A DNA stretch of 64,000 nt, taken from contig NZ_AJLN01000037.1 of NCBI RefSeq assembly GCF_000317285.1, positions 62,001-126,000 on the forward strand, in the 5' to 3' direction. The translations under genes and the position numbers were made by a program. Of this stretch, positions 39,687-62,909 are shown in pieces. Position 1 is the first letter of the stretch. Each line of letters begins with the position of its first letter. This stretch comes from Chlorogloeopsis fritschii PCC 6912. Its GTDB lineage: Bacteria > Cyanobacteriota > Cyanobacteriia > Cyanobacteriales > Nostocaceae. The notes under the pieces were generated by a model. The model was not told the origin of the DNA. It saw only the letters and a list, made by a program, of their open reading frames with translations, and did no database searches.

Positions 39687-40154
39687 TTATGGATCGAGTG
39701 AATACTTCATATTAATTCTAATTGTTGTATCCTTTTTTAAGGAAAAACTAGCATCTTGAAACTTTGGTACCCCCTTTAGCATTGATACAGTTGGATTTTT
39801 AGAAATACCAAAACCTTCTTGGGGCATACCTAAAAAGTCTCTGTTTAATTTGTAGTCTCCATTTTGATCGTCTACTACAGCGACAGCATAAGTTCCTGGC
39901 TTTAACCCGCTGAACTCCTTTTTTACAGAACTTCCTTGAATTTTAACGCAACCACTTTTTACTTCACTAGTATCACTTAAAGGAAATCCTCGTTCATCAC
40001 CATGTATTCTCAGACAAATCTGCCCTTTTTGGTTACGGATTCCATCGACTACAACAGTTAATTTTATGGTAGGTTTAGAATTAGCCGTTGCCAGGTTAAA
40101 AACGGCTAGATTAGAAAGCAAAAAAAGACTAAAGAGAACTGTTTTTTTGAACAT
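39687..40154 (-). CDS. Exported DUF2141 protein
   Basis: A 155-residue protein with an N-terminal signal peptide (about 1-25, ending ATANS) and the DUF2141 signature DQNGDYKLNRDFLGMPQEG followed by GFGISKNP. The family is a secreted beta-sandwich of unknown function. It is the last gene of the minus-strand block and starts 33 bases after the SDR gene ends, so it is probably co-transcribed and may act in transport or display of the product. Confidence 0.82.
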   Translation of the reverse strand: MFKKTVLFSLFLLSNLAVFNLATANSKPTIKLTVVVDGIRNQKGQICLRIHGDERGFPLSDTSEVKSGCVKIQGSSVKKEFSGLKPGTYAVAVVDDQNGDYKLNRDFLGMPQEGFGISKNPTVSMLKGVPKFQDASFSLKKDTTIRINMKYSLDP

Positions 40155-40187
40155 AACTATGAATTTACATTAGATATTTGCTGGTTT

Positions 40188-41195
40188 TTAAGAATTCAGT
40201 TCAGTTTTAATATCTGTGTTTCGCAGCCATTCCCGTGTGCGTCGCATTCCCTCTTCTAAGTCAATTTTTGGTTCATAATTTAAAATTCTTTGTGCTTTAG
40301 CAATAGAATATGCATAGGGACGTGAGAGAAAATCTACAGTTTCTGGTACAAGGTCTGGTTTTTTCCGAAAAAGTTTTTGTCCCTGTTCGCGCACTCTAAT
40401 AAATAATTTGGCTTCCTCTTTTGGTAAAGACAAAGGCACAGGTAAATCTGCTATTTTAGCTAGTCGTGTAAAATACTCTTTCCAAGAAGTATTTTGTCCA
40501 TCAGTAATGTTAAATATTTCTCCATATGCTTCTTTTTCGATGGCAAGAAATATGGCATCAATCAGGTTGTCAATATATACATGGTTGCTAACTCCCTGTC
40601 CATCGTTAACCAATGCAAATAATTTTTGATGCATCATATGTAGTGGTCGTACTATCCAAGGAATGCTTCTTGGCCCGTAAACATCTCCTGGTCTAATGAT
40701 GATGATCTCAAAATCCGGTGGGGCATGGAGTTGTAAGAGTGCTTCTTCAGCTTCTATTTTTGTTTGGCATAGAGGATTATTCTCACCACGTAGCGGCCCG
40801 TTTTCTGTGACGCGATCGGGATAATTGAAACCGTAAACCATAGCACTGGAAATATGAGTGAAGATTTTGACACCAGCACTCTTGGCAGCTTTAGCCATGG
40901 TAACAGTTCCACCAACATTGACCTCACGAAAATGCTTAAGTGAGCCACTTTCTTGGCTAATGCCAGCTGTATGCAAAACAATGTCTACTCCCTGACAAGC
41001 TTTAGAGGCGATCGCAGGATCGGTAACGCTACCAACAATAATTTCCGCACCCAATTTTTGAGCTTTTTTGGCTTTTTCGGCAGAACGTGCCAGCCCGCAA
41101 ACTTTCATTCCTCGTGCTATGGCTAGCTCGGCAGTTCGCAAACCGATAAATCCACTAATTCCTGAAATGAGAAGTGTTTGTTCAGATAAGTTCAT
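40188..41195 (-). CDS. Extended SDR (NAD-dependent epimerase/3-beta-HSD-like) lacking the usual Tyr
   Basis: A 335-residue extended short-chain dehydrogenase. The NAD-binding motif ISGISGFIGLRTAEL lies at residues 11-25, HTAGIS near 76, and Ser in ISSAMVYGF near 116. At the YxxxK position the protein reads NNPLCQTKIEAEE: the Lys is kept but the Tyr position is Leu (CTA codon). The rest of the fold, including IIRPGDVYGPRS, is intact. It may be a reductase using another proton donor, or a non-catalytic member. It follows the acyltransferase genes on the same strand. Confidence 0.8.
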   Translation of the reverse strand: MNLSEQTLLISGISGFIGLRTAELAIARGMKVCGLARSAEKAKKAQKLGAEIIVGSVTDPAIASKACQGVDIVLHTAGISQESGSLKHFREVNVGGTVTMAKAAKSAGVKIFTHISSAMVYGFNYPDRVTENGPLRGENNPLCQTKIEAEEALLQLHAPPDFEIIIIRPGDVYGPRSIPWIVRPLHMMHQKLFALVNDGQGVSNHVYIDNLIDAIFLAIEKEAYGEIFNITDGQNTSWKEYFTRLAKIADLPVPLSLPKEEAKLFIRVREQGQKLFRKKPDLVPETVDFLSRPYAYSIAKAQRILNYEPKIDLEEGMRRTREWLRNTDIKTELNS

Positions 41196-41253
41196 AAAGC
41201 TTACTCTCTTTAGAAGTATTTATATAGAAATTCCACACTCTATAAAGATGCAA

Positions 41254-42585
41254 TTATTTGATTAGCCAATTGCCAAAATTTAACTGTTGGTTGTTGCTAG
41301 CATCGACAATACAGGTAAGGACATTATCTGCAAGAATTTCTGCATTTTTCTGACTGATTGCAGGCTCAGAAAACATAAAATTTAAAAACATTTTTGACTC
41401 ATAAGTTAGAACAGCAACACGCCATCCTTTAAATGCGGCAATAGAAGTAACAAAACTGATTTCTTCTAGCTCAAACAAACCATAATTTGAAGGGATATTG
41501 ACTACACCTATATTGGTGACACCCACTGTTGAAACTGTCTGATGAGGGAAAGCAAGAAGAAACTCAATCAAAATCTTAGTTATCAGCGGTAAACAAAAGA
41601 TGCGATCGCCTGCTATTGTTGCTTCCATTTGTTGTCTGCGATCGCGAGCCAAATCCCAAAAAGATGTATTGATTCTCAGAGTATGACATGAAATATCACC
41701 AGAAACTAACACACTCAAATGTTCATTACTAATTTCTGGTTGAAGATGATTGCGTATATTGATTGTTGACCAACAACTGACACCTAAATTTGCTTTTTTC
41801 CCACCAGTGATTTTTCTAGCTGCTGCAAACAACATCGCTGCACATAAAGCAGCATATACCGTTGTCTGATTCTGTCTACAAGCATTTACTAACTGTTTGG
41901 TTTGCTCTACGCTCAGGGTTCTGTGAACCAAACCAGTACGGCTTGCTTCAATAGGTACGACTTGTTCAAACTTTAAATTTTTTGGTCGATACCAAATCTT
42001 CTTTAATAATTGCCTGCATACGGTTAAAAATATATTCACCGCACCTCTCCATCCCTGCATCGAAGCTGGAAGAAGATTTCCGATAGGTGGCAGTGCAGGT
42101 AAAGTGGCAACTTCTATTTGTTCAAAAGATGCAATTTTTTCACAATATCTCAAAAGTTCAGAATGCAGTTGAATGCATGATAAACCATCTGCGATCGCAT
42201 GATGAATTGTTGTAATTAAATAATTAATATTGCTTTGGTTTTTAACCTGAACCAGTACAACTCGCATTAAACTTGTGTGACTCTCAATTTTTTGATTGAG
42301 TTCTTCTAATGCAACTTCTTGCCACTGTTGAGGCTCGTACTTTTCCACAACACGTAAAGGAATATTGATGACTCCAGTTTCAAAGTGCAAACTACTTAAC
42401 TTACCGACAATTCGACAGTTTAAACGAGGGTGATGTGACTGTAGCACCTCAAGAGCTTGTCTGAGAATTTCTTCGCTAAAAATTCCGTTAATTCGACAAA
42501 TCGTGACGATATTGTATGTAGTAGCACGGCGATTCAAAATCTCCATTACTTGCTCGAAAGGAGAAAGTTTCCTGTCGTAGAGCAT
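41254..42585 (-). CDS. Condensation-domain acyltransferase, tandem copy 1 (PapA5/WS-DGAT-like)
   Basis: A 443-residue stand-alone member of the condensation-domain superfamily. It opens MLYDRKLSPFEQVMEILNR and carries the catalytic motif HHAIADG (near residue 130), whose second His is the general base. Such enzymes transfer acyl groups from ACP or CoA thioesters to alcohols or phenols. It shares the segment GWRGAVNIFLTVCRQLLKK with copy 3 but lacks the 30-residue C-terminal extension of copies 2 and 3. The start common to all three copies is the ATG at 42585; no strong Shine-Dalgarno sequence is seen. Confidence 0.8.
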   Translation of the reverse strand: MLYDRKLSPFEQVMEILNRRATTYNIVTICRINGIFSEEILRQALEVLQSHHPRLNCRIVGKLSSLHFETGVINIPLRVVEKYEPQQWQEVALEELNQKIESHTSLMRVVLVQVKNQSNINYLITTIHHAIADGLSCIQLHSELLRYCEKIASFEQIEVATLPALPPIGNLLPASMQGWRGAVNIFLTVCRQLLKKIWYRPKNLKFEQVVPIEASRTGLVHRTLSVEQTKQLVNACRQNQTTVYAALCAAMLFAAARKITGGKKANLGVSCWSTINIRNHLQPEISNEHLSVLVSGDISCHTLRINTSFWDLARDRRQQMEATIAGDRIFCLPLITKILIEFLLAFPHQTVSTVGVTNIGVVNIPSNYGLFELEEISFVTSIAAFKGWRVAVLTYESKMFLNFMFSEPAISQKNAEILADNVLTCIVDASNNQQLNFGNWLIK

Positions 42586-42648
42586 AAGCACATTTGTATT
42601 GAAAAAATAGGGGCTAGGAAGACTGGATTTGGTATCTACTAAATATTT

Positions 42649-44055
42649 TTACAGATTGCGTTGAGACGCTCGATGAGCAGTTTTCAAAGCACTTCTAGAC
42701 AATGAAGCTGGTTGATGCTGAGGAATGGCAATCATTTGATCGGCAAAGATAAATTTTTGGTTTTTGCTAGCTTCAATAATACAAGCAAGAACATTATCTG
42801 CAAGGATTTCTGCGATTTCTTGACTAATTGCAGGCTCAGAAAACATGAAATTTAAAAACATTTTTGACTCATAAGTCAAAACAGCAACACACAAACCTCT
42901 AAATGCTGCATTACCAGTAACAAAACTGATTTCTTCTAGTTTAAATAAATCATAATCTGAAGAAATATTTACTCTACCTATATTAGTGACACCTATTGTT
43001 GAAAATACTTGATAAGGGAAAACAAGAAGAAACTGGATCAAAAACTTAGTTATCAGCGGTAAACAAAAGACGCGATCGCCTGCTATTGTTGCTTCCATTT
43101 GTTGTCTGCGCTCGCGAGCCAAATTCCAAAAAGATGTATTGATTCTCAGAGTATGATATGAAATATCACCAGACACTAACAAACTCAAATGTTCATTACT
43201 AATTTCTGGTTGAAGACGATTGCGTATATTGATAGGTGACCAACAACTGACACCTAAATTTGCTTTTTTACCACTAGTGATTTTTCTAGCTGTTGCAAAT
43301 AACATCGCTGCGCATAAAGCAGAATGCACCGTTGTCTGATTCTGCCTACAAGCATTTACTAACTGTTTGGTTTGCTCTACGCTCAGGGTTCTGTGAACTA
43401 AACCAGTACGACGTAATTCTACAGGTAAGAATTTTTCAAACTTCAATGTTTTTGGTCGATACCAAACATCTTTGAACAAAAGTCTTGATATTGCTAAAAA
43501 TATATTCACCGCGCCTTTCCATCCCTGCATCGAAGCTGGCATAAGCTTTTCGATTGGTGGCAGTGCAGGTAAAGTGGCAACTTCTATTGGTTCAAAAGAC
43601 GTAATTTTTTCACAATATCTCAAAAGTTCAGAATGCAGTTGAATGCATGATAAACCATCTGCGATCGCATGATGAATTGTTGTAATTAAATAATTAATAT
43701 TGCTTTGGTTTTTAATCTGAACTAGTACAACTCGCATTAAACTTTTGTGACTCTCAATTTTTTGATTGAGTTCTTCTAATGCAACTTCTTGCCACTGTTG
43801 AGGCTCGTACTTTTCCACAACACGTAAAGGAATATTGATGACTCCAGTTTCAAAGCGCAAACTACTTAACTTACCGACAATTCGACAGTTCAAACGAGGG
43901 TGACGTGACTGTAGCACCTCAAGAGCTTGTCTGAGGATTTCTTCACTAAAAATTCCGTTAATTCGACAAATTGTGACGATATTGTATGTAGTAGCACGGC
44001 GATTTAAAATCTCCATTGCTTGCTCGAAAGGAGAAAGTTTTCTGTTGTAAGGCAT
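42649..44055 (-). CDS. Condensation-domain acyltransferase, tandem copy 2
   Basis: A 468-residue paralogue starting MPYNRKLSPFEQAMEILNR with the intact HHAIADG motif. The middle has its own version of a helix (AISRLLFKDVWYR) where copies 1 and 3 agree with each other. A C-terminal extension (ADQMIAIPQHQPASLSRS...) is Ser/Ala/Gln-rich and probably disordered. A gap of 63 bases separates it from copy 1. The retained catalytic motif in every copy suggests that all three are active and may attach different acyl groups or use different positions. Confidence 0.8.
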   Translation of the reverse strand: MPYNRKLSPFEQAMEILNRRATTYNIVTICRINGIFSEEILRQALEVLQSRHPRLNCRIVGKLSSLRFETGVINIPLRVVEKYEPQQWQEVALEELNQKIESHKSLMRVVLVQIKNQSNINYLITTIHHAIADGLSCIQLHSELLRYCEKITSFEPIEVATLPALPPIEKLMPASMQGWKGAVNIFLAISRLLFKDVWYRPKTLKFEKFLPVELRRTGLVHRTLSVEQTKQLVNACRQNQTTVHSALCAAMLFATARKITSGKKANLGVSCWSPINIRNRLQPEISNEHLSLLVSGDISYHTLRINTSFWNLARERRQQMEATIAGDRVFCLPLITKFLIQFLLVFPYQVFSTIGVTNIGRVNISSDYDLFKLEEISFVTGNAAFRGLCVAVLTYESKMFLNFMFSEPAISQEIAEILADNVLACIIEASKNQKFIFADQMIAIPQHQPASLSRSALKTAHRASQRNL

Positions 44056-44090
44056 AAATAACTGGGTATTATTGGTATCCAAAAAAATTT

Positions 44091-45494
44091 TTACTGATGG
44101 TGTCTAGAGACTGGAGGAGCAACACTCAATGCTTTAGAAGCAGATGAGGATAGATGATAGTGAGCGGCACTCATTTGATCGGCAAAAGTGAAGTTTGTGT
44201 TGTTACAAGCCTTAACAATACAGGCGAGGACATTATCGGCAAGAATTTCCGCGATTTCTTGACTGATTGCAGGCTCAGAAAACATGAAATTCAAAAACAT
44301 TTTTGACTCAAAAGTCAAAACAGCAACACACAAACCTCCAAATGCTGCCCATGCAGGAACAAAGCTAATTTCTTCTAGTTCAAATAAGCCATAATCTGAA
44401 GCAATGTTGACTCTACCGATATTAGTGACACCCACTGTGCCAAACATTTGACGAGGGCAAGCAAGAAGAAAATCGGTAAACAGCTTAATTAACAACGCTG
44501 AACAGAAGACGCGATCGCTTGCTATTGTTGCTTTCATTTGTTGTCTGCTGTTGCGAGCTAGATCCCAAAAAGATGTATTTGTTTTGAGGGTATGACACGA
44601 GATGTCACCAGAAACCAACACACCCAGGTGGCGATCGCTAATCTCTGGTTTGAAACGATTACGCAGGTTAATATTTGACCAACAGCTGACGCCTAAATTT
44701 GCTTTCTTGCCACCAGTGATTTTTCTGGCTGCCGCAAACAACATCGCCGCGCATAAAGCAGAATGCACCGTTGTCTGATTCTGTCTGCAAACACTTACCA
44801 ACTTTTCGGTTTGCTCTATGTTCAGGGTTCTATGAACCATGCCAGAATAGCGCGATTCAATCGGTACAAATTTTTCAAACTTTAAAGTTTTTGGTCGATA
44901 CCAAATCTTCTTTAATAATTGCCTGCATACGGTTAAAAATATATTCACTGCACCTCTCCATCCCTGCATCGAAGCTGGCATAAGCTTTTCTATTGATGGC
45001 AGTGCAGGTAAAGTGGCAACTTCTATTGGTTCACAAGACGTAATTTTTTGACAATATCTCAAAAGTTCAGAATGCAGTTGAATGCATGATAAGCCGTCTG
45101 CGATCGCATGATGAATTGTTGTAATTAAATAATTGAGATTTTTCTCAGTTTTGATTTGAACAAGTGCAACTCGCATTAGGCTTTTGTCGCTCTCAATTTT
45201 TTGATTGAGTTCTTCTAATGCAACTTCTTGCCACTGTTGAGGAGCGTACTTTTCCACAACACGTAAAGGAATATTGATGACTCCAGTTTCAAAGCGCAAA
45301 CTACTTAACTTACCGACAATTCGACAGTTCAGACGAGGGTGACGTGACTGTAGCACTTCAAGAGCTTGTCTGAGGATTTCTTCACTAAAAATTCCCTGAA
45401 TTCGACAAGTTGTAACTATGTTGTACGCGCTAGCACGACGATTAACTACTTCTATAACTTGCTCTAAAGGAGAAAGTTTTCTGTCATATAACAT
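44091..45494 (-). CDS. Condensation-domain acyltransferase, tandem copy 3
   Basis: A 467-residue paralogue, first of the three to be transcribed. It starts MLYDRKLSPLEQVIEVVNRR; a longer in-frame start at 45590 would read through GC-rich repeat DNA and is rejected. HHAIADG is intact, and it has the C-terminal extension. It differs from its paralogues mainly in the middle (RYSGMVHRTLNIEQTEKLV). It ends 36 bases before copy 2 starts. Confidence 0.8.
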   Translation of the reverse strand: MLYDRKLSPLEQVIEVVNRRASAYNIVTTCRIQGIFSEEILRQALEVLQSRHPRLNCRIVGKLSSLRFETGVINIPLRVVEKYAPQQWQEVALEELNQKIESDKSLMRVALVQIKTEKNLNYLITTIHHAIADGLSCIQLHSELLRYCQKITSCEPIEVATLPALPSIEKLMPASMQGWRGAVNIFLTVCRQLLKKIWYRPKTLKFEKFVPIESRYSGMVHRTLNIEQTEKLVSVCRQNQTTVHSALCAAMLFAAARKITGGKKANLGVSCWSNINLRNRFKPEISDRHLGVLVSGDISCHTLKTNTSFWDLARNSRQQMKATIASDRVFCSALLIKLFTDFLLACPRQMFGTVGVTNIGRVNIASDYGLFELEEISFVPAWAAFGGLCVAVLTFESKMFLNFMFSEPAISQEIAEILADNVLACIVKACNNTNFTFADQMSAAHYHLSSSASKALSVAPPVSRHHQ

Positions 45495-45534
45495 AATAAA
45501 GATGTTTTGTATGTCATGGTTTGTATCCAATCGT

Positions 45535-45655
45535 AGGGGAGCCAGTCGCTTGCGGGGGTTCTCCCCGTTGTGCGAACTGGCGTTGGGCATTGCCCGTCAA
45601 AGTTAATGTGGTAAGTATTTGAGATATAGGTGAACAATGCCCACCTGACACAAAA
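45535..45655. repeat. GC-rich word plus partial GGGCATTGCCC/TGCCCACC repeat
   Basis: GGAGCCAGTCGCTTGCGGGGGTTC (GC-rich family) is followed by GGGCATTGCCCGTCAAAG and AACAATGCCCACCTGAC, a degenerate copy of the MITE-like family. It separates the acyltransferase genes from the docking-domain gene and may break or modulate the transcript. Confidence 0.65.
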
Positions 45656-45663
45656 CTGCAAAT

Positions 45664-47535
45664 TTAGCGATCGCCAAATTTTGCTTTTAGAGAAGCAAAA
45701 TGTTTACCACCAAGTTCAATTTGTCCTTCTGCGCACCCAGCCTTTAATCTTTCTACTAGATATTCCAAATCACGAGCGATGAAATTTGTACCATGATCTG
45801 GTTCGATTAAACTTACTAGGGCTGTATTTTCTACTTGCTGATTCGTTAAGCTAGAAATACCCAAAAAATTGAATACTCCTGATTCATAAGTTCCACAAGG
45901 AACTGATGGATTTGTTACGCCAACATAATATTCATTTGGTTTAAACCATTCTAATGCTGGGTAACCATGAAAATGAACAATTGGGGCACCATTTTTAATA
46001 AGTTCTGGTGCATATAAAGCAGCAGACAAACTAATAGCAAGCATTACGTAGATGTCATAGGAAGGTTTGATATCTGCTAGCTCTGGATTAATATTTTGTG
46101 GTAATTGAAGAATTAAATTTTCTTTCAAACCAATACGAATAACATCACTTTCCAGCTTTAAATCTGTTTTGTTCGAGCCGGAGCGAGAGCTAACAAGCCA
46201 GATATCTGGTATTTGCTTAAATAGATATTCTCCATTGACCTTGGTTTTGATATAAAACCGACCTTTTTCATTTTGACGGAGTTCATCGTGATTAAATCCC
46301 GTCACAGGTAATAGACTTTGCCACTCATTTTCAGTTATTTCTGGCTCACCAATATATTGTGGAGGTTCAGCATAAGCAACAAAACCATAAGATACACCTG
46401 TCCTGCCATTAACTATGACATTCACTATATCTCTATGAGATTTTCTTTTGATAACTTCATAAAGCTTAAAGCCTGGAGGAAATAGACCTGTTGGTGCCAA
46501 TTCATTACCTAATTTCACTAATTTTGTAGCATAGCTAGATTCATGAGGATCATACTGTCCTAGCTCAAATCGACTTAGTAAAAGAGGATATATTGGTACA
46601 AAAATTTTAGGAATTAGTGAGTTAGCAACAAAGTGTTCTATCTCATTTCTAGGAAAAACAGAATCTGAAAGATTCATATTTAAAATAGAAATTTTTTCTT
46701 CAGACACTCCAATCACCATTTCTGAGAATGTTCTGATTAAAGTGTTTAAACCAATTTTTATTTTTTGTTGATAAGGAAGTAAAGGATTGACAAATTCCTG
46801 ATCTATTTGTGTAAGGGTGATTACCTGAGTATTAGTAGGGTCTTCAATGTATTTAGCTGTGTGGTCTTCAGCCCAACTACTCAATTTAGCTATTCTAGAA
46901 ACAGAAATTTCTCGGTTCTTCAAAAGTAAATGCGAATAAATTTGATATAAATTTTCTGCTACACATATACCCAACTTTCTTAACAAAAACGGAGTATTCT
47001 CAACATCAATAACTGCATCAACTTCTGATTTTACATTCTTGGTTTTGAAGCTTTTTTTCCAGTTTGTTTTGGGAATCTTAAACAAATAGCTAAACTCTGT
47101 TGTTGCTTCTTCCCAAGGTAAAACTTTTACTCCATAATCCCTAAATTTAGTTGCTAATTCTTCTCTAAATTTAATAATTTCTGTGCGATTGTAGCCTTTA
47201 GGTAAAGGTCTAAATGTAACTGTTAGCTTTTGAGCCATCACTTTAGGATCAACAACTGGTGGCTGATATTCCACATTTGATTGTTTTACAAATCCCCCAA
47301 TTAAACGACCAATAGTTTGCAGGCTTAGTCCGATGTTCAAAGGAATGGAAGCTGCTTTAGCTGCAACATCTTGTTCGCGTAAAAACGCCAAAATTTCTGC
47401 TTTATAAGTAGTTAGTTCTGCCTGTATTTCTGGTGTAATTACCCCCTTAGGAGAACGAAGATTAAGTTTGTTATTATCCACCCACAATTGAACACCTTTT
47501 TGAGTAAGATTTTCCAAAAGTTCAGATGCATTCAT
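45664..47535 (-). CDS. Protein of unknown function with N-terminal TubC-type docking domain
   Basis: A 623-residue protein. Residues 1-52 (MNASELLENLTQKGVQLWVD, then LNLRSPKGVITPEIQAELT and ILAFLREQ) match the TubC docking domain found at the N-terminus of NRPS/PKS proteins. The remaining 570 residues match nothing I know. They contain no carrier-protein Ser motif, HHxxxDG or nucleotide-binding loop that I can see; a Cys-Gly segment PSVPCGTYESGVFNFLG (near 545) and FHGYPALEWF (near 515) stand out. Position between the ACP and the acyltransferases suggests a direct role on carrier-bound intermediates. Confidence 0.7.
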   Translation of the reverse strand: MNASELLENLTQKGVQLWVDNNKLNLRSPKGVITPEIQAELTTYKAEILAFLREQDVAAKAASIPLNIGLSLQTIGRLIGGFVKQSNVEYQPPVVDPKVMAQKLTVTFRPLPKGYNRTEIIKFREELATKFRDYGVKVLPWEEATTEFSYLFKIPKTNWKKSFKTKNVKSEVDAVIDVENTPFLLRKLGICVAENLYQIYSHLLLKNREISVSRIAKLSSWAEDHTAKYIEDPTNTQVITLTQIDQEFVNPLLPYQQKIKIGLNTLIRTFSEMVIGVSEEKISILNMNLSDSVFPRNEIEHFVANSLIPKIFVPIYPLLLSRFELGQYDPHESSYATKLVKLGNELAPTGLFPPGFKLYEVIKRKSHRDIVNVIVNGRTGVSYGFVAYAEPPQYIGEPEITENEWQSLLPVTGFNHDELRQNEKGRFYIKTKVNGEYLFKQIPDIWLVSSRSGSNKTDLKLESDVIRIGLKENLILQLPQNINPELADIKPSYDIYVMLAISLSAALYAPELIKNGAPIVHFHGYPALEWFKPNEYYVGVTNPSVPCGTYESGVFNFLGISSLTNQQVENTALVSLIEPDHGTNFIARDLEYLVERLKAGCAEGQIELGGKHFASLKAKFGDR

Positions 47536-47682
47536 AGTTTCATTATCTCTGGTTTAAGAATAGGAACTAATAACCTCGTAACCTCGTGACCAGGTTGAAC
47601 CTGATCACGATAACTAGAGCAATCTGGCTCTTTCAATCAAATAGTGCAAGATATCAGGTGATCAAAATATTTTGTAGCTTCT

Positions 47683-47988
47683 TCAAAACTCAAAAGTCTC
47701 TGAGTTTGAATCTGCAAAATCTTCTGCTAAACGCTGGCTCAATGCTTCAATTGTGGGGTAATGCCACAACAGAATCAAAGACAACTTACATCCAAGTAAT
47801 TTCTCTGCTCTACTGGCAAGAACCATACCCTGCGCTGAATCCAAGCCATAACTGTCTAAAGGTTCTCGAATATCTATTTCATCAGCTGCAACTCCTAGCA
47901 TCTCAGAAATATTAGAAACTAGCCAGGCTTGTATTTCTTCTGCAGTATATGACTGTTTTGAAGTTGAATTAACAATAGATTGGCTCAT
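47683..47988 (-). CDS. Stand-alone acyl carrier protein
   Basis: A 101-residue carrier protein with the phosphopantetheine site [20 protein letters not shown] (Ser in Leu-Asp-Ser). The N-terminus includes [19 protein letters not shown], typical of ACPs paired with PKS or fatty acyl-activating enzymes rather than FabF-type housekeeping AcpP (which has DSLD). The start at 47988 is favoured by AGAGGT; a longer start would add an unlikely hydrophobic segment. It probably presents the acyl group to DarB/DarA or the acyltransferases. Confidence 0.85.
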
Positions 47989-48171
47989 TTGAAAACCTCT
48001 AAAGTAAAAGAGTTGACCTACCAAGCTAATGAACAAAACTGATTTGAACAAATTTTCTACCTGGGGAACTAGCTGTTTAGCTGGTTTATAAATTTTTGAG
48101 TCTTTGACAAGTCTGCTTATGAAGCCTGTTGTTTTTCATGTTTTGCCTAAAGGCAGTAATAAACACACCAA

Positions 48172-49323
48172 TTAAACGGCTGTTAGGTGCATATAAGCGT
48201 ATGAAAATCTAGCACTTTCGGGAATCAAGCAAAATATTCTATCACCTGGTTCAAGTTTTCCTGATGACATTAATTCCTCTAACATAATAAAAATGGAGGC
48301 AGAGCCTGTATTACCCTTGTAGGTTAGGTTAGTAAACCATTTATCAAACGGAATCTCAAATCCAATTCCCACTAATTCATCATGGAGTGGCAACTTAAAG
48401 TGTTCTGATGAATAATGAGGTAAATACCAAGTGATATGATCTGGTTTTAAATGATATTTGTCTCGAACTTGTGCAAAGCCTTTTTGAATTCCATAGGAAA
48501 CTACATTTTCTCCTAGCAGTTTTGCATCTTGTTTTAAGGCAATATAATTTTCTTTCCAAACTTCATCTGGATTTTCAACATCCCGCAAGCCTTGTAAAGA
48601 ACCATCAGATCTCTTCACGGCTCCTGCATACATACAAGTCTCTAGTTCATTGGCAAAAGAGACGATATCAACCCAATCTACTCTAAGTGAAATACCATTT
48701 TGACGAGGTGTATCCGTTATCAGCACTGCTGCGGCAGCATCGGAAAGCATCCACCTCAAAAAATCCTTCTCAAAAGCTATAATTGGTTTTGCTTCCAAAT
48801 CCTGAATTTTAGCTTCTATTTCGGGCTGAAAGAACTTCGCTCTGAATTGATTTGATACAAGTTCTGAACCTGTAGTTACAGCATTTTTGGTTAATCCGGA
48901 ATACACGCTCATGTATCCATATTTAAATGCAGTCATTCCTGAGCAGCAGACTCCACTTGTGGATACAACCTCACAAGGAGGACACTTAATTTCTCCATGC
49001 ACCATGAGAGCATGATTAGGAACAATTTGATCCGGAGAAGATGTTCCACAAACTAAACATTCTATTTCCTCTAATGGAAAATTAGAGTTTTTGGAAAGAG
49101 TACGTACTGCCTCAGCAGTTAATTGTGCATTAGTATGAGTTTGCTTACCTGTTTGCGGAGCTATTGCATAATATCGAGATTTTATACCGTTATTTTTTAG
49201 GATTCTATTTTTACATCGAGAAGGTTTGCCATTAATTAACCCCAAAACATTTTCCATTTCCTCATTATTGACTGGTTCATTAGGTAGAAAAACTCCTAGA
49301 CCTGTAATGTATGCTGAAGCCAT
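48172..49323 (-). CDS. KAS III-type ketosynthase, DarB-like
   Basis: A 383-residue thiolase-fold protein. The catalytic triad of KAS III is visible: Cys127 in SGVCCSGM, His in WYLPHYSSEHF (near 283), and Asn in LTYKGNTGSAS (near 322). Together with the next gene it resembles DarB of dialkylresorcinol pathways, which condenses a 3-ketoacyl thioester with a second acyl unit. AGGAGA precedes the ATG. It could instead be an ordinary FabH, but length, divergence and the DarA-like neighbour argue against this. Confidence 0.82.
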   Translation of the reverse strand: MASAYITGLGVFLPNEPVNNEEMENVLGLINGKPSRCKNRILKNNGIKSRYYAIAPQTGKQTHTNAQLTAEAVRTLSKNSNFPLEEIECLVCGTSSPDQIVPNHALMVHGEIKCPPCEVVSTSGVCCSGMTAFKYGYMSVYSGLTKNAVTTGSELVSNQFRAKFFQPEIEAKIQDLEAKPIIAFEKDFLRWMLSDAAAAVLITDTPRQNGISLRVDWVDIVSFANELETCMYAGAVKRSDGSLQGLRDVENPDEVWKENYIALKQDAKLLGENVVSYGIQKGFAQVRDKYHLKPDHITWYLPHYSSEHFKLPLHDELVGIGFEIPFDKWFTNLTYKGNTGSASIFIMLEELMSSGKLEPGDRIFCLIPESARFSYAYMHLTAV

Positions 49324-55562: not shown

Positions 55563-58500
55563 TCACCTTTTCGTAGATAGAATAGTTCCTTTTGCTCCTA
55601 TCATGCGAGTATATATTTTTCCTTTCAAGTCATGTGCATAAACATCAGCAATCACAGATGACTCTGTTTTTGACTTTACTTCACAGGAAACATAAAACTT
55701 TTCATCAAATGGAATGGGTGCGAACTGTTCAAAAGTTTTGATTTCCGAAGGTAAACAACCTTCTCGATGGAAATATTGCGTCCAAATCCACAGTGAATGA
55801 ATTTGAACATCCGCAATATAGGGATTAAATGTTATTACTGGAAATTGCCCTTGTTGTCTTTCTTCTAGGTTTGGTAAAACACATTCTATAGTTACTTGAT
55901 CAGGGCTGGCATTTAAGATAGTTTTTACGCCCTGGAAATAAGGGCCGTGAAACAAGCTCATTGATCCATTTTGATAAAGTGAGTTACTGGAACCAAAGAT
56001 GATTTCTTGCTGTTGTAAATTCAAGGAATCATAATTAGGGGTAACTGGAATTTGACGTTTAAGCTTTACTTGGCTGCTAAAATGATAGCGGATTTTTCCT
56101 TCTCGATTCTGGCTCCAGATTTTAGCATCAAGCTCTATCTCATCTGCATCGTTTTTAGCAATCTCTTGTAAATCTATCGTGTATTCACTGGCAAGATTTT
56201 CATCAAACACTATTCCCTTCAAAACCTTATAGTTTAGACAACTAAATGATTTATAACCGGGATAAAGTTGTTCGCAGGTACTTGCAATCCATGATAAGGC
56301 ACAAGTGGCAGGTAAAACTGGGTGACCAGCAATCACATGATCTTGTAAAAATGGGTTGGCTGCTAATTTTAATCGCCTCTGGATGCGAAATTTTTGTAAC
56401 TCAGGATTAAATGACTTGGGTTTGTATGTGAGGGGACTACCAATTACTACTTGCACAGTTTGTTGGTTGCTTTGTGTTAGTTCGTTAACCAACATTTGAG
56501 TTCCAACTTCTATAGGAATAGTCTCAATACCTCGTTCGGCAAAAGCTTTCTTTAACTCTGGAGTTACCATGCCACTTTCCCAAGGCCCCCAATTAATCGC
56601 AACTACGTGACAATTGGGATAATTGCGTTTAACTAGATGGGCTGACTTGTTGAGAATTTCGTTGGCGATCGCATAATCTGACTGACCAATATTCCCATAA
56701 AAACCTACTACAGAGGAAAACAGGACTAAATAATTCAGTTGATTGGACGACACACAGCGCAGCAGATTTTCTAATCCTTTAACTTTGGCGGCGTAAACCG
56801 TTTCAAAATCCCGTTCTGATTTGTTTTCAATTCGTTTGTCTGCTAAATTGCCAGCTCCGTGAATAATTCCTGTTACTGTTCCCAAACGTTCTACTACAGT
56901 ATTAACTTGCTCTTGGAGCAGTGTTGCATCAGTTATATCCACGCTCAGATATTCTGCTTGTCCACCTGCCTGCTCAATTGCTCGTAGTGTTGTGTCAATT
57001 TCTCGCCTGGATGCAATAGCCTTATACTTTTTCTGCACCATTGCAGGTGTAGGCTTGTCCCCTTTGGCTACAAAATCATCCATAATCCGCTTTTTCAATT
57101 CCCCTTCATTGAAGCAGCCTTCAGCCCATACAGGTTCAGGATCTACAGGAGAACGTCCAAGCAGAATAAATTTGCATTGATAATGTCGTGCTAGTTGAAT
57201 AGCGCATTGAGCTGTTATCCCTTTTGCACCACCGCTGACGAGAAATACTTGGGATTGGGGATCGGGGATTGGGGATCGGGGATTGGGGATTGGGTATTCC
57301 CTAGTCCCCTCTTCACACACCAGCGTCGTTCGTCCTTGCAAACTGTATCCAACTTCTGCAATTAAACGATTGGGATCGTAGAGTTCGGCGAGGATATACC
57401 GTACTGATGCTTGAGTATCCAAATCGGGGCTGAGATCTAGCGCTCGGCAAAATACGGGTTCCCATTCTTGATTCAAGGTTTTAGTTAACCCAAACAGTCC
57501 ACTACCAATGGCACCAAAGTTGGTTTTCTGCCCTAGTCCGAACTCACCATCAAGACGAGCAACGGTAAGGAAGCAGCTACGCCCCTTAGTTGCAGCTTGA
57601 TTGAGTGGTTCTTTAAGATGTTTGGCAATCAGAAAGACTTGGCGGAGTAGGGCTTTCTCAGTTTCTAGATAACGGATGTCATTACTGGTATTGTCATGAC
57701 TTGCAGGATTGAGGTGGATGAATGCGGCAATTGAACCATACTCAGCAGCGATCGCTTCTAACTGATTTTTCAAATTGTCTTCGCTTAAAGAAGCCAACAC
57801 CACGCGATTTATTCCTTCTGGTAAAGGCAACTGTTTTGCAATTAAGGTTTGGGGAAAACTCAAGACAACCACTTTCCAACCGCGTTCATAAAGAGCAAGA
57901 GCTAGTTCTGAGGTAGTGAGGGAGCCATCATCAGTAAGCAGGGCAATATGCTTATCAGGCAATGTAAAATCTAAAACATCAGGTTCGGGAAGAAATTTGA
58001 GTTTGACTGGACTGCGAAGAATCTTACAATCTAGCTCAGATGGCTGGTTGCAAGGCTCGGCTGGAAGTGTTTTTTTTTCCAGCAGATTAGCCTGTTGTTT
58101 CATGTAGTCAACAATTTGACCAAGAGTACGTAATTCTCCGAGCTCTTCCGGATTTGGCTTGGGTAAATCTGGGCATAGCTCCAAAAGCGCTCCCAGAATT
58201 TCAACTCGTTTGATCGAATCAATTCCCAAGTCTGCCTCCATATCCATCGAGAGTTCTAGCATCTCGACTGGGTAGCCTGTTTTCTCACTGACAATATTGA
58301 GCAGAATTTGACTGAGATTATTTAAGTCAAGGGATGGAACTGGGGAAACCGATTCTTCTGGAGTAATGGCAATGGCAGGAACTGAGGAAGCTGGTTCTTC
58401 TGGAGTAATGGCAATGGTGGGAACTGGCGAGGAAGAAGCTAGGTGTATATTTTCCCTCTCCGCATCTTCTAAAACTGCGTTGCTACCTTCGCTTGTCTTT

Positions 58501-61500
58501 GCCTCATCCAAAGTAGCTTCTTGTGTTGTCTTCGTAGTTGCAGACTCAATTTGAGCAATTGCTGGTACAAGAGTCCACATATACTCTACGATTTGGCCAA
58601 GGGTACGTAGTTGTCCCAGTTCTTCTGGATTCGGCTTGGGCAAATCTGGATATAACTCTAAGAGCGCTCCCAAAATTTCAACCCGTTTGATTGAATCAAT
58701 TCCTAAATCAGCCTCAATATCCATCGACAGTTCCAACATCTCGATTGGATAGCCTGTCTTATCGCTAACAACGTTTAGTAGAGTCTGACTAAGGGTGGCT
58801 TCATCAATTGTTGTTGGTGATGAAGGCGCATCTAAAGATGGCAGGATAGAGTTATCAAAGGTTGTTATTGTAACTGGTTTTGTGCCATTACTGACATCAG
58901 AATGAACACCATTAGTTGTAACATCTTCAGAGCTAGTTACTAGCTTTACATCGTTGTTTATATCGTGATGAACGCCGTTAGTTGTAACACCTTCAAAGGT
59001 AGTTACTAACTTTACATCGTTGTTTGCATCATGATGAACGCCATTAGTTGAAATACCTTCAAAGCTAGTTACTAACTCTTTAGTAGGTACACCAACAACA
59101 GAACTAGATGTTTCCTCTGATGGCAGAACTGCAGGATGTTTATCTATTTTCTGTTCCCTTTTATTGCCCGTGTTTGCAAGCAACAGATCGTACTGTTGCT
59201 GGAGTAATTGGAAAAAGTTTTTAGTTTGTTCTGTCTGATGATTTAGATATTGCTCATGAACGCGCAGGGTTTCACCTTGATGCTCGTGAAATCGCATGAT
59301 GCTGCGTTCAGCGTAGGAGAGTCCTATATGTTTATTTTCTGTCTGTGGAAGAGCAGATTGGCTATTTTTGAGTAAGGAATTCTGCTGCTGCATCAATTGG
59401 AAGAAGGTTTTAGTATATTCCGTTTGATGCTGTAAAGATTGTTCGTGGACACGCAGAATATCACGTTGATGGCGATTGAATTCTATCAAAGTGTATTCTA
59501 AGCTGTCTAAAACTAGCTGATAATTTTGAGGCTCTGGTTGAGAAGTTGCTTGAGAAGATTTCATCATCTCAGAAGACTTTTCTGGTTTATTACCGTTTGT
59601 AGCTAATGTGGGTTTGCTGTTTTCTGTATTTACATATTGGGGGGTGTTTTTAACAGCAAGATTAGATGGGATATCCACCTCAAAGGAATTATCTTTTGGA
59701 TGTGCAAAAGTGACTCGATGCCCATTTTGGTAAGTTTTCTTGCTAGAAGATTCTGCTGATTTACTACCGTTTGCAACTAGTACGGGCTGGCGGTTTTCTG
59801 AATTCATATACAAGGGGATGGGTGCCTTGTCTATGTTTAAGACAGGCAGAGTAGAGAAATTATCTTTTGCATATGCAATACTGACTTGATGCCCATTTTG
59901 CAGAGCTTTTGCAAAAGCTTGTTTGGTTTTTTCTGACAGGTAGTTACTGCCATTTAACCAAACATTTAAGAGCTTATTTTTGGCTACTTCTGGTGTTTGG
60001 TACTCAATTTGATAGGGATCGGGATTTTTTAAAGGCAATCCAGCAACGCGTAACTGCACAACAGCTTCTCGAAGACAGCGATCGCTATCTTTTTGCTGAG
60101 TGCCATTCAAAGCCACAGTTAAATGGGGTTTTTCTGCAAGGATATCTTTCACCAAGTTGGTGAGAATACTTTTAGGCCCAAATTCAATGAAGTAATAACC
60201 GCCTTCAGCGTAGATATTCTCAATCTCTTGCTTGAAAAGTACCTGATTAATCAGGTGTTGTTTGAGGATTTTTTGAATGGCTTGGGGTTCACTTGGGTAG
60301 CGTTCTCCTGTCACATTTGTGTAAACAGGGATTTGTGGCTGGTTGAAACTGACTTTCTCAATTGCTTGGGCAAAGGGTTTCTGTGCATGGGCTACCAGTG
60401 GAGTATGAAAAGCTGCCGAAACCGATAGTAGAACGGTAGAGAAAGCGCGATTATTCAGTTCTTCCTGAATTTTGGCGATTTCAGCTTTCGCCCCTGCCAA
60501 CACAACTTGACGAGGAGAATTCAAGTTAGCAATGGTGACTAAAGGAAAATTCTTGACTACTTCTTCAACTTGGCTGACATCTCCTTTGACAGCCAGCATA
60601 GCTCCCGCATCAAACTCAGGATCGTTTGGTGCAGCCATAGCTTGTCCTCTGGCTTTTACCAAGAAAAAGTAATCTTCCTCACTGAGAACACCAGCAGCCC
60701 ACAGAGCAGTCAATTCTCCAAAGCTGTGTCCGATCGCAAAATCTGGCTTGAACCCTCCCTGTTGCAATATTTTGTATAGAGCAACACTAAAAGCTCCGAT
60801 TGCTGGCTGGGCATATTCTGTCTGCTGTAATGCTTCAACCTGTGCCTGTCTTTGAGCTGGCTCGAATACAGGGGGAGGAAAAACTATTTCTGAAAGGGGC
60901 TGCAACCCATCTTTACAGAAAAGATTATCCATGCAACTATAACTCTGTCGCAAGCAAGGGAAGTTAATTGCAAGTTCTCGACCCATTTCCAGATATTGAG
61001 AGCCTTGCCCAGAAAATAGAGCTACTACTTTCCCGGCAGTTGCGATCCCAGATTTGCGGTAGTAAATTCCTTGGGGATGCTCCCAAGATGGAGTTTGTGG
61101 CTTATCTTTGAGCAATTTAATACTTGTTTGCAGTAGCTTGCAAGCATCTGTTAAAGAATCGGCAACAAATCCAACTCTGGCATCAGTGACAGGAATTTCT
61201 AATGATTGACACGCTGCAATCAGTAGTTCATAGTTCTGTTCTTTCTCTTCGGATTGCAATTTACGCAGTATTTCTTCACAACGTGATAATAGCTGCTCTG
61301 GTGTAGGCGCAAATATAAATATTGATTGGAGAGTTTTGTGTAAACGATAAGGGCGATCGTGTTCGCTGGAATATTCTTCTAAGACGATGTGATAATTAGT
61401 GCCACCAAAGCCAAAAGAACTCACTCCAGCACGTCTTGGTGTTTCTGCATTGGGGCAAATCCAAGGTCTGGTTTCTGTATTCAAATACAACGGTGAGTTT

Positions 61501-62909
61501 TCAAGATCGAGTTTCGGGTGCGGTTTAGTAACGTTTATCGTTGGTGGCAATACTTTGTGGTGCAGAGCTAATGCTGTTTTAATCAGACTAGCTGCTCCTG
61601 CGGCAGCTTTTGTATGTCCAATCTGCGATTTAACACTACCGAGTGCAATATGCTGTTTTTTTGGATTGTTTGCGCCAAAAACTTCTTTAAGAGCTGTAAC
61701 TTCGGCAGGATCTCCAACCATAGTACCCGTGCCATGTGCTTCAATCAAACCGACACTTGTAGGTGAAATTCCTGCATCTTCATAGGCACGCAGCAAGGCT
61801 CTAACTTGTCCCTCTGGACGAGGTGCATAGATGCTTTTATAGCGCCCATCACTAGAGGTGCCAATACCTTTAATAACTGCATAGATGCGATCGTTATCTC
61901 TAACGGCGTCTTCAAGACGCTTTAGTACCAGCATCCCAATCCCCTCAGCCAACATCATCCCATCAGATTCGGCATCAAAAGGTTTTGGATTCTGGCTTGG
62001 GGAGACAGCAGGTGTTTTGCTGAAACACATATAGGCGACAATCGAGTTGTCGGTGTCAACTCCGCCTGTCAGCATCATGTCGGCTCGATACTCAACTAGT
62101 TCGCTGATTGACATTGCCAGTGCTCCTAAGGAACTGGCACAGGCGGCATCCACTACACAGTTCATTCCTCCTAAATCTAGACGATTGGCAATTCGTCCAG
62201 CAACTATGTTGGCAAGCATACCGGGAAAAGCATTTTCTTCCCACCGCACATATGCACTTTTGATTTTCTCGATAATTTTTTGTGTATCCTCATCAGATAA
62301 ACCACTACTTTTGAGGGCTTTTTCCCAGATCGGATACTCTAGTCTAGTAGCCAATGGCATTGCTAGCTGTCTTGCCAGGGCTACACCCAAAATCACTCCA
62401 GTACGCTCTCGATTAAACTGGCTTTTTTCACCGTAGCCCGCATCTTCCATTGCTGCTTTAGCAACAACTAAACCTAGCAATTGCGAAACATCTGTAACTT
62501 CCAGAACATTGGGAGGAAGCCCAAACTCCATCGGATTAAATTCGATTTCGGGGATGAATCCACCGCGTTTGCAATAAGTTTTGTCAGGTGCTTTAGGATT
62601 GGGATCGTAGTAATCATCAATGCTCCAGCGCGATGGAGGAACATCGGTAATACAATCAACTTTGCGAATAATTTTTTCCCAATATTCTTGTAAATTTTTA
62701 GATTCTGGGAAGATAGAAGCCATTCCAACAATGGCAACGGGAGTATGTTGCAGTCGTCTATTAATTTTTTTAGTTTCTGTCGCTTGCGCGGACATCGCTT
62801 GTGCGGACATATTTTTTTTCACCTTTATAAGCTTGTGCAAGGCTTTTTCACAATTGCTTACTTCGTCTTGCAACTGTGCCAAGGTAGCTTCAATCCAAGA
62901 AGCAGTCAT
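55563..62909 (-). CDS. Giant PUFA-synthase-type polyketide synthase (KS-AT-ACP-ACP-KR-DH)
   Basis: A 2448-residue megasynthase of the PfaA/HglE type. In order: N-terminal coiled coil (1-50); KS (about 55-490) with VDAACASSL (Cys257) and EAHGTGT; AT (about 620-930) with GHSFGE (Ser729); a long linker with a duplicated VHEQ-HQTE motif (about 1137-1245) and three degenerate TTNGVH repeats; ACP1 and ACP2 with the PUFA-type LGIDSIKR (Ser1406 and Ser1565); KR (Rossmann motif FLVSGGAKGIT near 1892; SSVVGFYGN and YAIAN); and a hot-dog DH with HVIAGHPVLP near 2197. It builds a reduced or partly unsaturated chain. No strong Shine-Dalgarno is seen. Confidence 0.93.
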   Translation of the reverse strand: MTASWIEATLAQLQDEVSNCEKALHKLIKVKKNMSAQAMSAQATETKKINRRLQHTPVAIVGMASIFPESKNLQEYWEKIIRKVDCITDVPPSRWSIDDYYDPNPKAPDKTYCKRGGFIPEIEFNPMEFGLPPNVLEVTDVSQLLGLVVAKAAMEDAGYGEKSQFNRERTGVILGVALARQLAMPLATRLEYPIWEKALKSSGLSDEDTQKIIEKIKSAYVRWEENAFPGMLANIVAGRIANRLDLGGMNCVVDAACASSLGALAMSISELVEYRADMMLTGGVDTDNSIVAYMCFSKTPAVSPSQNPKPFDAESDGMMLAEGIGMLVLKRLEDAVRDNDRIYAVIKGIGTSSDGRYKSIYAPRPEGQVRALLRAYEDAGISPTSVGLIEAHGTGTMVGDPAEVTALKEVFGANNPKKQHIALGSVKSQIGHTKAAAGAASLIKTALALHHKVLPPTINVTKPHPKLDLENSPLYLNTETRPWICPNAETPRRAGVSSFGFGGTNYHIVLEEYSSEHDRPYRLHKTLQSIFIFAPTPEQLLSRCEEILRKLQSEEKEQNYELLIAACQSLEIPVTDARVGFVADSLTDACKLLQTSIKLLKDKPQTPSWEHPQGIYYRKSGIATAGKVVALFSGQGSQYLEMGRELAINFPCLRQSYSCMDNLFCKDGLQPLSEIVFPPPVFEPAQRQAQVEALQQTEYAQPAIGAFSVALYKILQQGGFKPDFAIGHSFGELTALWAAGVLSEEDYFFLVKARGQAMAAPNDPEFDAGAMLAVKGDVSQVEEVVKNFPLVTIANLNSPRQVVLAGAKAEIAKIQEELNNRAFSTVLLSVSAAFHTPLVAHAQKPFAQAIEKVSFNQPQIPVYTNVTGERYPSEPQAIQKILKQHLINQVLFKQEIENIYAEGGYYFIEFGPKSILTNLVKDILAEKPHLTVALNGTQQKDSDRCLREAVVQLRVAGLPLKNPDPYQIEYQTPEVAKNKLLNVWLNGSNYLSEKTKQAFAKALQNGHQVSIAYAKDNFSTLPVLNIDKAPIPLYMNSENRQPVLVANGSKSAESSSKKTYQNGHRVTFAHPKDNSFEVDIPSNLAVKNTPQYVNTENSKPTLATNGNKPEKSSEMMKSSQATSQPEPQNYQLVLDSLEYTLIEFNRHQRDILRVHEQSLQHQTEYTKTFFQLMQQQNSLLKNSQSALPQTENKHIGLSYAERSIMRFHEHQGETLRVHEQYLNHQTEQTKNFFQLLQQQYDLLLANTGNKREQKIDKHPAVLPSEETSSSVVGVPTKELVTSFEGISTNGVHHDANNDVKLVTTFEGVTTNGVHHDINNDVKLVTSSEDVTTNGVHSDVSNGTKPVTITTFDNSILPSLDAPSSPTTIDEATLSQTLLNVVSDKTGYPIEMLELSMDIEADLGIDSIKRVEILGALLELYPDLPKPNPEELGQLRTLGQIVEYMWTLVPAIAQIESATTKTTQEATLDEAKTSEGSNAVLEDAERENIHLASSSPVPTIAITPEEPASSVPAIAITPEESVSPVPSLDLNNLSQILLNIVSEKTGYPVEMLELSMDMEADLGIDSIKRVEILGALLELCPDLPKPNPEELGELRTLGQIVDYMKQQANLLEKKTLPAEPCNQPSELDCKILRSPVKLKFLPEPDVLDFTLPDKHIALLTDDGSLTTSELALALYERGWKVVVLSFPQTLIAKQLPLPEGINRVVLASLSEDNLKNQLEAIAAEYGSIAAFIHLNPASHDNTSNDIRYLETEKALLRQVFLIAKHLKEPLNQAATKGRSCFLTVARLDGEFGLGQKTNFGAIGSGLFGLTKTLNQEWEPVFCRALDLSPDLDTQASVRYILAELYDPNRLIAEVGYSLQGRTTLVCEEGTREYPIPNPRSPIPDPQSQVFLVSGGAKGITAQCAIQLARHYQCKFILLGRSPVDPEPVWAEGCFNEGELKKRIMDDFVAKGDKPTPAMVQKKYKAIASRREIDTTLRAIEQAGGQAEYLSVDITDATLLQEQVNTVVERLGTVTGIIHGAGNLADKRIENKSERDFETVYAAKVKGLENLLRCVSSNQLNYLVLFSSVVGFYGNIGQSDYAIANEILNKSAHLVKRNYPNCHVVAINWGPWESGMVTPELKKAFAERGIETIPIEVGTQMLVNELTQSNQQTVQVVIGSPLTYKPKSFNPELQKFRIQRRLKLAANPFLQDHVIAGHPVLPATCALSWIASTCEQLYPGYKSFSCLNYKVLKGIVFDENLASEYTIDLQEIAKNDADEIELDAKIWSQNREGKIRYHFSSQVKLKRQIPVTPNYDSLNLQQQEIIFGSSNSLYQNGSMSLFHGPYFQGVKTILNASPDQVTIECVLPNLEERQQGQFPVITFNPYIADVQIHSLWIWTQYFHREGCLPSEIKTFEQFAPIPFDEKFYVSCEVKSKTESSVIADVYAHDLKGKIYTRMIGAKGTILSTKR
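57246..57310. repeat. STRR inside the PKS coding sequence
   Basis: Plus-strand heptamers GGGGATT and GGGGATC repeat five times and are followed by CCCTAGTCCCC. On the coding strand the run stays in frame and encodes YPIPNPRSPIPDPQSQ (residues about 1867-1888), a Pro-rich linker directly before the KR Rossmann motif. Confidence 0.85.

Follow-up and report, generated by a model that had tools for sequence, protein, structure and literature searches.

The window analysed here is a stretch of 64,000 nucleotides from Chlorogloeopsis fritschii PCC 6912 (contig C36, positions 62001–126000, of the 7.75-Mb genome G000). Between window positions 39687 and 62909 it carries a block of 12 genes, all on the minus strand, in which the dialkylresorcinol (DAR)-type enzymes DarA and DarB (dar) lie inside an operon for an iterative lipid synthase related to polyunsaturated fatty acid (Pfa) synthases. 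The block comprises a PfaA-like protein, a protein with a glutamine-bearing ketosynthase (KSQ) and an acyltransferase (AT) domain, PfaD, DarA, DarB, an acyl carrier protein (ACP), a protein with a TubC_N docking domain, three further acyltransferases, a short-chain dehydrogenase/reductase (SDR) and a DUF2141 protein. DarA follows PfaD after 66 bp and DarB follows DarA after 46 bp, which places the pair, on the same strand, within the Pfa operon. An earlier sequence-only reading had proposed this gene list; every gene was found in place on the minus strand, profiles back each assignment for which a model exists, and the embedded DarA/DarB pair proved real. The locus extends past the window edge into a DevBCA exporter.

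DarB scored 568.4 bits against the StlD/DarB family model NF005293 (cut-off 450) and aligned end to end with the StlD structure 5gk0 (E = 2.6e-131), its C126, H303 and N338 corresponding to the catalytic Cys, His and Asn. These Cys-His-Asn motifs are kept in 14 of the 15 DarB copies from genomes of the family, the exception being a 133-aa piece in G354 (locus L015). No curated NCBIfam or Pfam family was matched by DarA above its cut-off, and we identify DarA by its pairing with DarB in the window and at other loci. At 12 of the 14 loci homologous to DarA, a full DarB directly follows DarA; L015 holds a DarB fragment only, and in L021 DarB precedes DarA with one 467-aa open reading frame (ORF) between them. 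In the ORF listings of relatives, ORFs shorter than 80 aa or overlapping a longer ORF by a quarter were left out, and the DarA of L021 was recovered from the homology listing. The pairing persists at 39–46% identity in Beta- and Gammaproteobacteria and Planctomycetota, and Streptomyces plasmids with a 28–29% identical DarA homologue have a DarB homologue adjacent in three of three cases. On these plasmids (NZ_CP109562.1, NZ_CP108465.1 and NZ_CP108315.1) the adjacent distant DarA and DarB (28–29% and 39%) are annotated as a hypothetical protein and a β-ketoacyl synthase III-type synthase; no record in the plasmid collection was annotated as DarA.

An AlphaFold2 model of DarA built from 15 sequences reached a predicted local distance difference test (pLDDT) score of 74.6 and a predicted template modelling (pTM) score of 0.78. 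Its first ~210 residues matched flavin mononucleotide (FMN) flavoproteins in Foldseek (Z 12.6, root-mean-square deviation 2.8, 154 residues aligned), with receptor fusions carrying flavodoxin disregarded; the C-terminal helices are less certain. DarA is thus predicted to adopt a flavodoxin fold and may bind FMN, which would suit a two-electron oxidation of a cyclohexanedione to a resorcinol. An Azoarcus homologue is labelled a DAR-aromatase (PMC3949708).

The synthase genes are clearly assigned. The PfaA-like protein scored 2244 bits against TIGR02813 (cut-off 1010) and PfaD 662 bits against TIGR02814 (cut-off 449), and the KSQ-AT protein lies just over the cut-off of the PfaB family TIGR02816 (146.3 versus 144.3 bits). 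PfaA carries the ketosynthase (KS) motif DAACASS, the AT motif GHSFG, two LGIDSI ACP sites and the dehydratase (DH) motif HxxxGxxxxP; in its KSQ-AT partner the KS Cys is replaced by Gln (TAEQNS) and the His of HGTG by Phe, with the AT motif GYSLGE intact. Paired FabA-like dehydratases of the PfaC type define Pfa synthases. PfaA and PfaD are present here; a PfaC-type dehydratase is not, as Pfam found no FabA-family match in the 12 cluster proteins and the only DH is the PS-DH-type domain of PfaA. For lack of FabA-type dehydratases, the polyunsaturated chain that the sequence-only reading had invoked is not supported and was rejected. Ketoreductase (KR), DH and PfaD enoyl reductase are all there, as in heterocyst-glycolipid synthases. 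A largely reduced chain is therefore likelier, and the synthase looks like the heterocyst-glycolipid type.

The same genome holds two further Pfa-type loci, on contigs C79 and C96. The C96 locus looks like the heterocyst glycolipid set (presumably hglE/D/C/A/B): its PfaD homologue is 75% identical to that of the window, a DevC gene lies ~5 kb away, and the PfaA-like function is split into pieces of 1837 and 579 aa versus one chain of 2448 aa in the window. The C79 locus (L060, L061) comes with a separate set of DevBCA genes, and its PfaD shares 76% identity with the window protein. DevC genes thus lie near all three Pfa-type loci of this genome.

Table. Features of the locus (window positions), with the basis of each assignment
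Feature	Positions	Strand	Basis
PfaA-like iterative synthase, 2448 aa, KS-AT-ACP-ACP-KR-DH	55563..62909	-	TIGR02813 2244 bits, Pfam domains, active-site motifs
KSQ (chain-length-factor-like) + AT protein, PfaB/HglC-related, 1067 aa	52198..55401	-	PF00109/PF02801; TIGR02816
PfaD enoyl reductase, 549 aa	50384..52033	-	TIGR02814 662 bits; PF18328/PF21607
DarA, proposed flavin-dependent aromatase, 315 aa	49370..50317	-	Homologous loci, DarB pairing, AlphaFold2 fold
DarB, StlD/DarB-family ketosynthase/cyclase, 383 aa; C126, H303, N338	48172..49323	-	NF005293, StlD 5gk0, motifs
Empty slot between DarB and ACP	48052..48171	-	Filled in relatives, at this place or immediately past DarB, by CylK + CylC-like (+ FAD halogenase) or by desaturase genes
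Free-standing ACP, ORF of 122 aa from TTG	47683..48051	-	PF00550; GLDS motif
TubC_N docking domain + conserved C-terminal part of no assigned family, 623 aa	45664..47535	-	PF18563
PapA5-like acyltransferase 1, HHAIADG	44091..45590	-	PF16911 61.6 bits
PapA5-like acyltransferase 2, HHAIADG	42649..44082	-	PF16911 54.5 bits; 77% identity to copy 1
PapA5-like acyltransferase 3, HHAIADG	41254..42591	-	PF16911 56.5 bits; 84% identity to copy 2
Extended SDR, NAD(P)-binding, Leu at Tyr position of YxxxK	40188..41195	-	PF01370; motif comparison
DUF2141 protein, 155 aa, hydrophobic N-terminus by eye	39687..40154	-	PF09912 121 bits
Start of PfaA-to-DevBCA intergenic region	62910..64000	.	Divergent DevB-DevC-DevA beyond the window

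DarA matches were found in 6 of 291 sampled genomes of the order: near full length in C. fritschii PCC 6912, G036 and G078, as fragments in the dar-less Pfa clusters of G058 and G191, and as a weak broken piece in G223. Within the family, 18 of 217 genomes gave matches, 15 of them near full length (C. fritschii included) and the rest fragments (G058, G191, G462). Eleven of these 15 near full-length copies lie within a Pfa cluster. The order PfaA-KSAT-PfaD-DarA-DarB-[slot]-ACP-TubN, with TubN the TubC_N protein, is kept at eight of the eleven (G000, G324, G346, G347, G441–G444), so that the block, which the sequence-only reading had suggested looking for in relatives, is conserved across several genomes. 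The G345 contig stops short of the ACP, whereas G294 and G327 join the same modules in other layouts; the TubC_N protein is accordingly found in 10 of the 11 clusters, G345 being the exception. A PfaA-like gene lies ~9 kb away on the opposite strand in G359. Carriers of the cluster include Fischerella PCC 9431, PCC 73103, PCC 7414 and PCC 7521 and Westiellopsis prolifica IICB1.

DevB, DevC and DevA are encoded on the plus strand, divergently from PfaA, at 65218–66501, 66880–68052 and 68078–68776 on the window scale (C36 ~127218–130776; L059:3218–6776), and score above the curated cut-offs of TIGR02971 (369 bits), TIGR01185 (477.5) and TIGR02982 (377). DevBCA occurs at 16 of the 17 cyanobacterial dar loci read, 2–26 kb from DarA; the miss is G330, where 20 kb were read. 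It adjoins PfaA at all 11 Pfa-dar loci, 14–26 kb from DarA, and lies 2–6 kb from DarA at five further dar loci (G359, G354, G355, G036 and G078), standing in G359 between the PfaA-like gene and DarA. Given 12 DevC genes in the 7.75-Mb genome, one would be expected by chance within 27 kb of a given locus in ~8% of cases and within 6 kb in ~2%; the loci are not independent of one another. DevBCA also accompanies dar-less Pfa clusters (G058, G191, G216, G253, G276 and others), so at Pfa-linked loci the exporter may be part of the Pfa module and not of dar; a tie to dar is indicated because dar loci lacking Pfa genes in the stretch read also have it. DevBCA is needed for heterocyst glycolipid export (PMC8064123).

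Pairwise ratios of nonsynonymous to synonymous substitution rates (dN/dS) of 0.08–0.38 indicate purifying selection on 11 genes (PfaA left out) versus G324, G443 and G346, with acyltransferase 3 compared only to G324; DarA and DarB gave 0.08–0.24. In the PfaD tree and in that of the TubC_N protein, the window clusters with its genus-mate G324 and with the dar clusters of Fischerella type. G327 belongs to this group by PfaD (95/90) and lies outside it by the TubC_N protein. G294, in which dar follows the TubC_N gene, groups with three genomes bearing dar relics. These relics are DarA fragments (residues 1–50 or 53–106) in the dar-less Pfa/TubN clusters L056, L057 and L096 of G058, G191 and G462. 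The groupings imply either that a wider set inherited dar from a common ancestor, with later losses, or that dar was acquired repeatedly; given the poor resolution of the DarB tree, a single gain cannot be told from several. The window DarB is 90–91% identical to those of Pelatocladus (G441) and Westiellopsis (G443) and 80% to that of its genus-mate G324, to which the other window genes are 81–93% identical. At the nucleotide level the same comparison gives 88–89% versus 81%, with a synonymous divergence (dS) of 0.55 to G443 versus 0.74 to G324. DarB, beside the variable slot, was probably exchanged between lineages.

The content of this slot divides the family genomes. Nine of the 15 (G294, G327, G330, G345, G346, G347, G441, G442 and G444) have a CylK homologue plus a CylC-like gene behind DarB, and four of these (G346, G441, G442, G444) also have a gene resembling FAD-dependent halogenases; desaturase genes stand there instead in four (G324, G354, G355, G443), and neither type is present in the window or in G359. 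The CylK identity is firm (PDB CylK match, E = 2.3e-155). Across the ten CylK homologues of the nine genomes, Arg105 and Tyr473 are kept in all ten and Asp440 is Glu in all ten; at position 374, Glu is replaced by Ala in nine copies and by Pro in one, and at 438, Leu is replaced by Phe in nine copies and by Tyr in one. CylK homologues that carry Arg105 and Tyr473 show strong conservation of Asp440, whereas BrtB has Glu (PMC8916777, eLife 2022), and the shared Glu440 hints at O-alkylation by the slot homologues. The name "CylC-like" is the weakest of those used here, being based on a sub-cut-off AurF match of a paralogue (22.5 versus 29.6 bits), position beside CylK and size; the best PDB hit was unrelated (E 0.041), and NCBIfam gave no match. 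At L014 (Cyanomargarita calcarea) the dar/CylK cluster is accompanied by a type III polyketide synthase (PKS), an O-methyltransferase and two CylC-like genes.

No CylK homologue was matched anywhere in the genome of C. fritschii. A CylC-like halogenase is likewise missing from the window cluster, its sole homologue in the genome (37%) lying at C135:15169–16296 (L126). That protein adjoins one with a Rieske motif, recognised by eye, resembling the uncharacterised Rieske-containing clusters described in PMC8406957. Halogenation of the window product by it was considered and rejected, given its place on another contig beside a Rieske-type protein.

Among the remaining proteins, the ACP probably starts at 47988, giving 101 aa, because most homologues align from about residue 22. 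All three acyltransferases match PapA_C (PF16911) at 54–62 bits, above the cut-off of 30, and have the HHxxxDG motif. The docking domain of the TubC_N protein suggests binding to a PKS partner, and H521, H523, C547, D580 and H581, invariant across 17 sequences, suggest catalysis. Its homologues (L024–L052) are 60–80% conserved, share invariant HFHGYP, PCGTYESG and EPDHG motifs and adjoin the ACP in Pfa clusters of many cyanobacteria; near full-length copies occur in 35 of the 291 order genomes, C. fritschii included, and a partial one in a further genome. A fold could not be assigned to it: the AlphaFold2 model from seven close sequences had a pLDDT of 36, and a 17-sequence profile run against the PDB retrieved nothing but docking domains above noise. 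At the Tyr position of the SDR motif YxxxK, the window and G324 have Leu and five relatives have Phe; one copy in G327 and one in G462 have Tyr. As a thioester reductase the SDR fails (TIGR01746, 38 versus a cut-off of 213). The DUF2141 protein is probably secreted.

Taken together, gene content, gene order, catalytic motifs, selection and exporter linkage suggest a pathway in which all chemical steps, the origin of the chain, its acylation and its destination are proposals. The PfaA-like KS-AT-ACP2-KR-DH protein, its KSQ/AT partner and PfaD would assemble an ACP-bound chain that is long and largely reduced. DarB would join a β-ketoacyl thioester to an α,β-unsaturated acyl thioester, one or both supplied by the Pfa-type synthase, and close a cyclohexanedione ring, which the flavodoxin-like DarA would oxidise to a 2,5-dialkylresorcinol. 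Its hydroxyl groups would be esterified by at least one of the PapA5-like acyltransferases, and the neighbouring DevBCA would export the lipid to the envelope. Aromatisation followed by acylation, as the sequence-only reading had it, is the natural reading of the gene set. We give the whole scheme, an iterative lipid synthase feeding DarB/DarA to yield a long-chain dialkylresorcinol that is acylated and exported by DevBCA, a probability of about 0.5.

Several observations weigh against it. DarB misses the stricter NCBIfam DarB model NF053539 (503.9 versus 550), as does the betaproteobacterial DarB adjoining DarA in L020 (496.3). The SDR lacks its usual Tyr. No Pfa gene lies within the 20 kb read at the dar loci of G330, G354 (which has the DarB fragment) and G355 or, outside the family, of G036 and G078. 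Conversely, Pfa/ACP/TubN clusters lacking dar are common: of the 36 order genomes with a TubC_N protein only C. fritschii has a near full-length DarA. No acyltransferase was present in the stretches read for dar-less G077, G119, G174, G216, G227, G253 and G276 or for dar-bearing G327. Since the two modules occur apart, their adjacency is no proof that the chain is handed over. The same separation would fit the main rival, a flexirubin-like logic, in which DarA and DarB use ordinary fatty-acid intermediates and a PapA5-like acyltransferase attaches the separately made Pfa chain as an ester. Many dar-less Pfa-ACP-TubN clusters indeed include an acyltransferase (38–49% identical), flexirubins consist of polyene acids in ester linkage to a DAR (PMC3992019), and bartoloside chains derive from primary fatty-acid metabolism (PMC7081238). 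Set against this are the main layout, where DarAB sits between PfaD and the ACP and not at an edge, and the dar-Pfa cluster of G327, whose lack of an acyltransferase in the stretch read makes DarB the likelier release step there. Because both modules also occur apart, sequence alone cannot choose between hand-over to DarB and this logic, which we regard as possible, with the odds well below even.

A heterocyst-glycolipid-like pathway with DarAB accessory or vestigial, yielding mainly an aliphatic ester or glycolipid of the kind presumed for dar-less TubN clusters and a minor or lost resorcinol, would account for the dar-less relatives of the same backbone, the DarA relics in three genomes and the DarB fragment in G354, as well as for an exporter of the heterocyst glycolipid family (PMC8064123). 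We consider it unlikely, as the window DarA and DarB are intact, DarB keeps its catalytic residues, dN/dS stays at 0.08–0.24 against three relatives, and DevBCA stays beside dar even at loci that showed no Pfa gene. That unrelated lipid genes merely happen to be adjacent is very improbable: although Pfa and dar modules do occur separately, chance is nearly excluded by the conserved synteny, and the two other joined layouts (G294, G327), the short gaps and the purifying selection speak against it as well.

If the scheme in which the synthase feeds DarB/DarA holds, DevBCA exporters would extend beyond glycolipids, and a further route, besides the type III PKS of Azotobacter, would lead from an iterative lipid-synthase chain to a phenolic envelope lipid. 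Speculatively, Fischerella-group cyanobacteria might then make an unrecognised class of exported phenolic envelope lipids, combining a glycolipid-type synthase, DarAB and DevBCA with an interchangeable tailoring slot. With CylK and a CylC-like enzyme in the slot, as in nine genomes, a cryptic chlorination of the lipid would precede its O-alkylation, chemistry that could join lipid molecules into esters or oligomers; C. fritschii, with the slot empty, would make the acylated lipid without this tailoring.

The genes have known relatives, but their combination appears undescribed. Among the literature matches listed, none described a cyanobacterial pairing of Pfa-type genes and DarA/DarB, nor did a literature search find a paper with "dialkylresorcinol" together with PfaA, hglE or DevBCA, supplements, MIBiG and antiSMASH being outside its scope; the sequence-only reading, which knew of no cyanobacterial pathway with this set, holds to that extent. 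Software may flag such loci already, as both "resorcinol" and hglE-KS types appear in antiSMASH results for Chlorogloeopsis (PMC11392904). According to the eLife 2022 CylK survey, no dialkylresorcinol enzymes were seen in CylK clusters other than that for bartoloside (PMC8916777), a statement that the dar/CylK loci of the nine family genomes contradict. A BMC Genomics 2021 study reports eight dialkylresorcinol-type CylC clusters, some from Nostocales, in a section without mention of Pfa genes (PMC8406957), and may already include part of the dar/CylK set. If our reading is right, DarAB and CylK/CylC-type alkylation chemistry co-occur outside bartoloside, against the survey statement (PMC8916777). 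The main interest thus lies in a testable product class and in the contradiction of a published survey.

Heterocyst glycolipid (hgl) clusters include an ACP-thioester reductase of the HglB/HetM type. The window block shares with them the PfaA-type synthase, the chain-length-factor/AT protein, PfaD, ACP and the DevBCA exporter, but its ACP is free-standing, it has no such reductase, and it adds DarA/DarB, PapA5-like acyltransferases and the TubC_N protein. With the bartoloside (brt) cluster it has DarA/DarB-type dialkylresorcinol enzymes in common, and its relatives have CylC/CylK-family partners with Glu440 in CylK as in BrtB (PMC7081238, PMC8916777); bartoloside chains, however, come from primary metabolism (PMC7081238), whereas the window operon has a dedicated type I synthase and neither a glycosyltransferase nor CylC/CylK. 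Flexirubin and arcuflavin clusters share the DarA-DarB pair and, as proposed for the window, an esterified dialkylresorcinol and an envelope location (PMC3992019, PMC3949708); the window system differs in its Pfa-type acyl supply and PapA5-like acylation and has no recognised aryl-polyene genes. Cyanobacterial "Type G" and hybrid Pfa-nonribosomal peptide synthetase (NRPS)-PKS pathways likewise use Pfa-like genes distinct from hgl (PMC3098273, PMC13291983) but are tied to PKS/NRPS genes, and the descriptions in these sources mention no resorcinol-forming enzymes. A precedent for the proposed pathway is the Ars system of Azotobacter vinelandii, in which a PUFA-like (polyunsaturated fatty acid) synthase adjoins resorcinol-forming enzymes that make the phenolic lipids of cysts (PMC3098273, PMC13291983); there the ring is formed by a type III PKS, where the window has a DarB-type ketosynthase and DarA.

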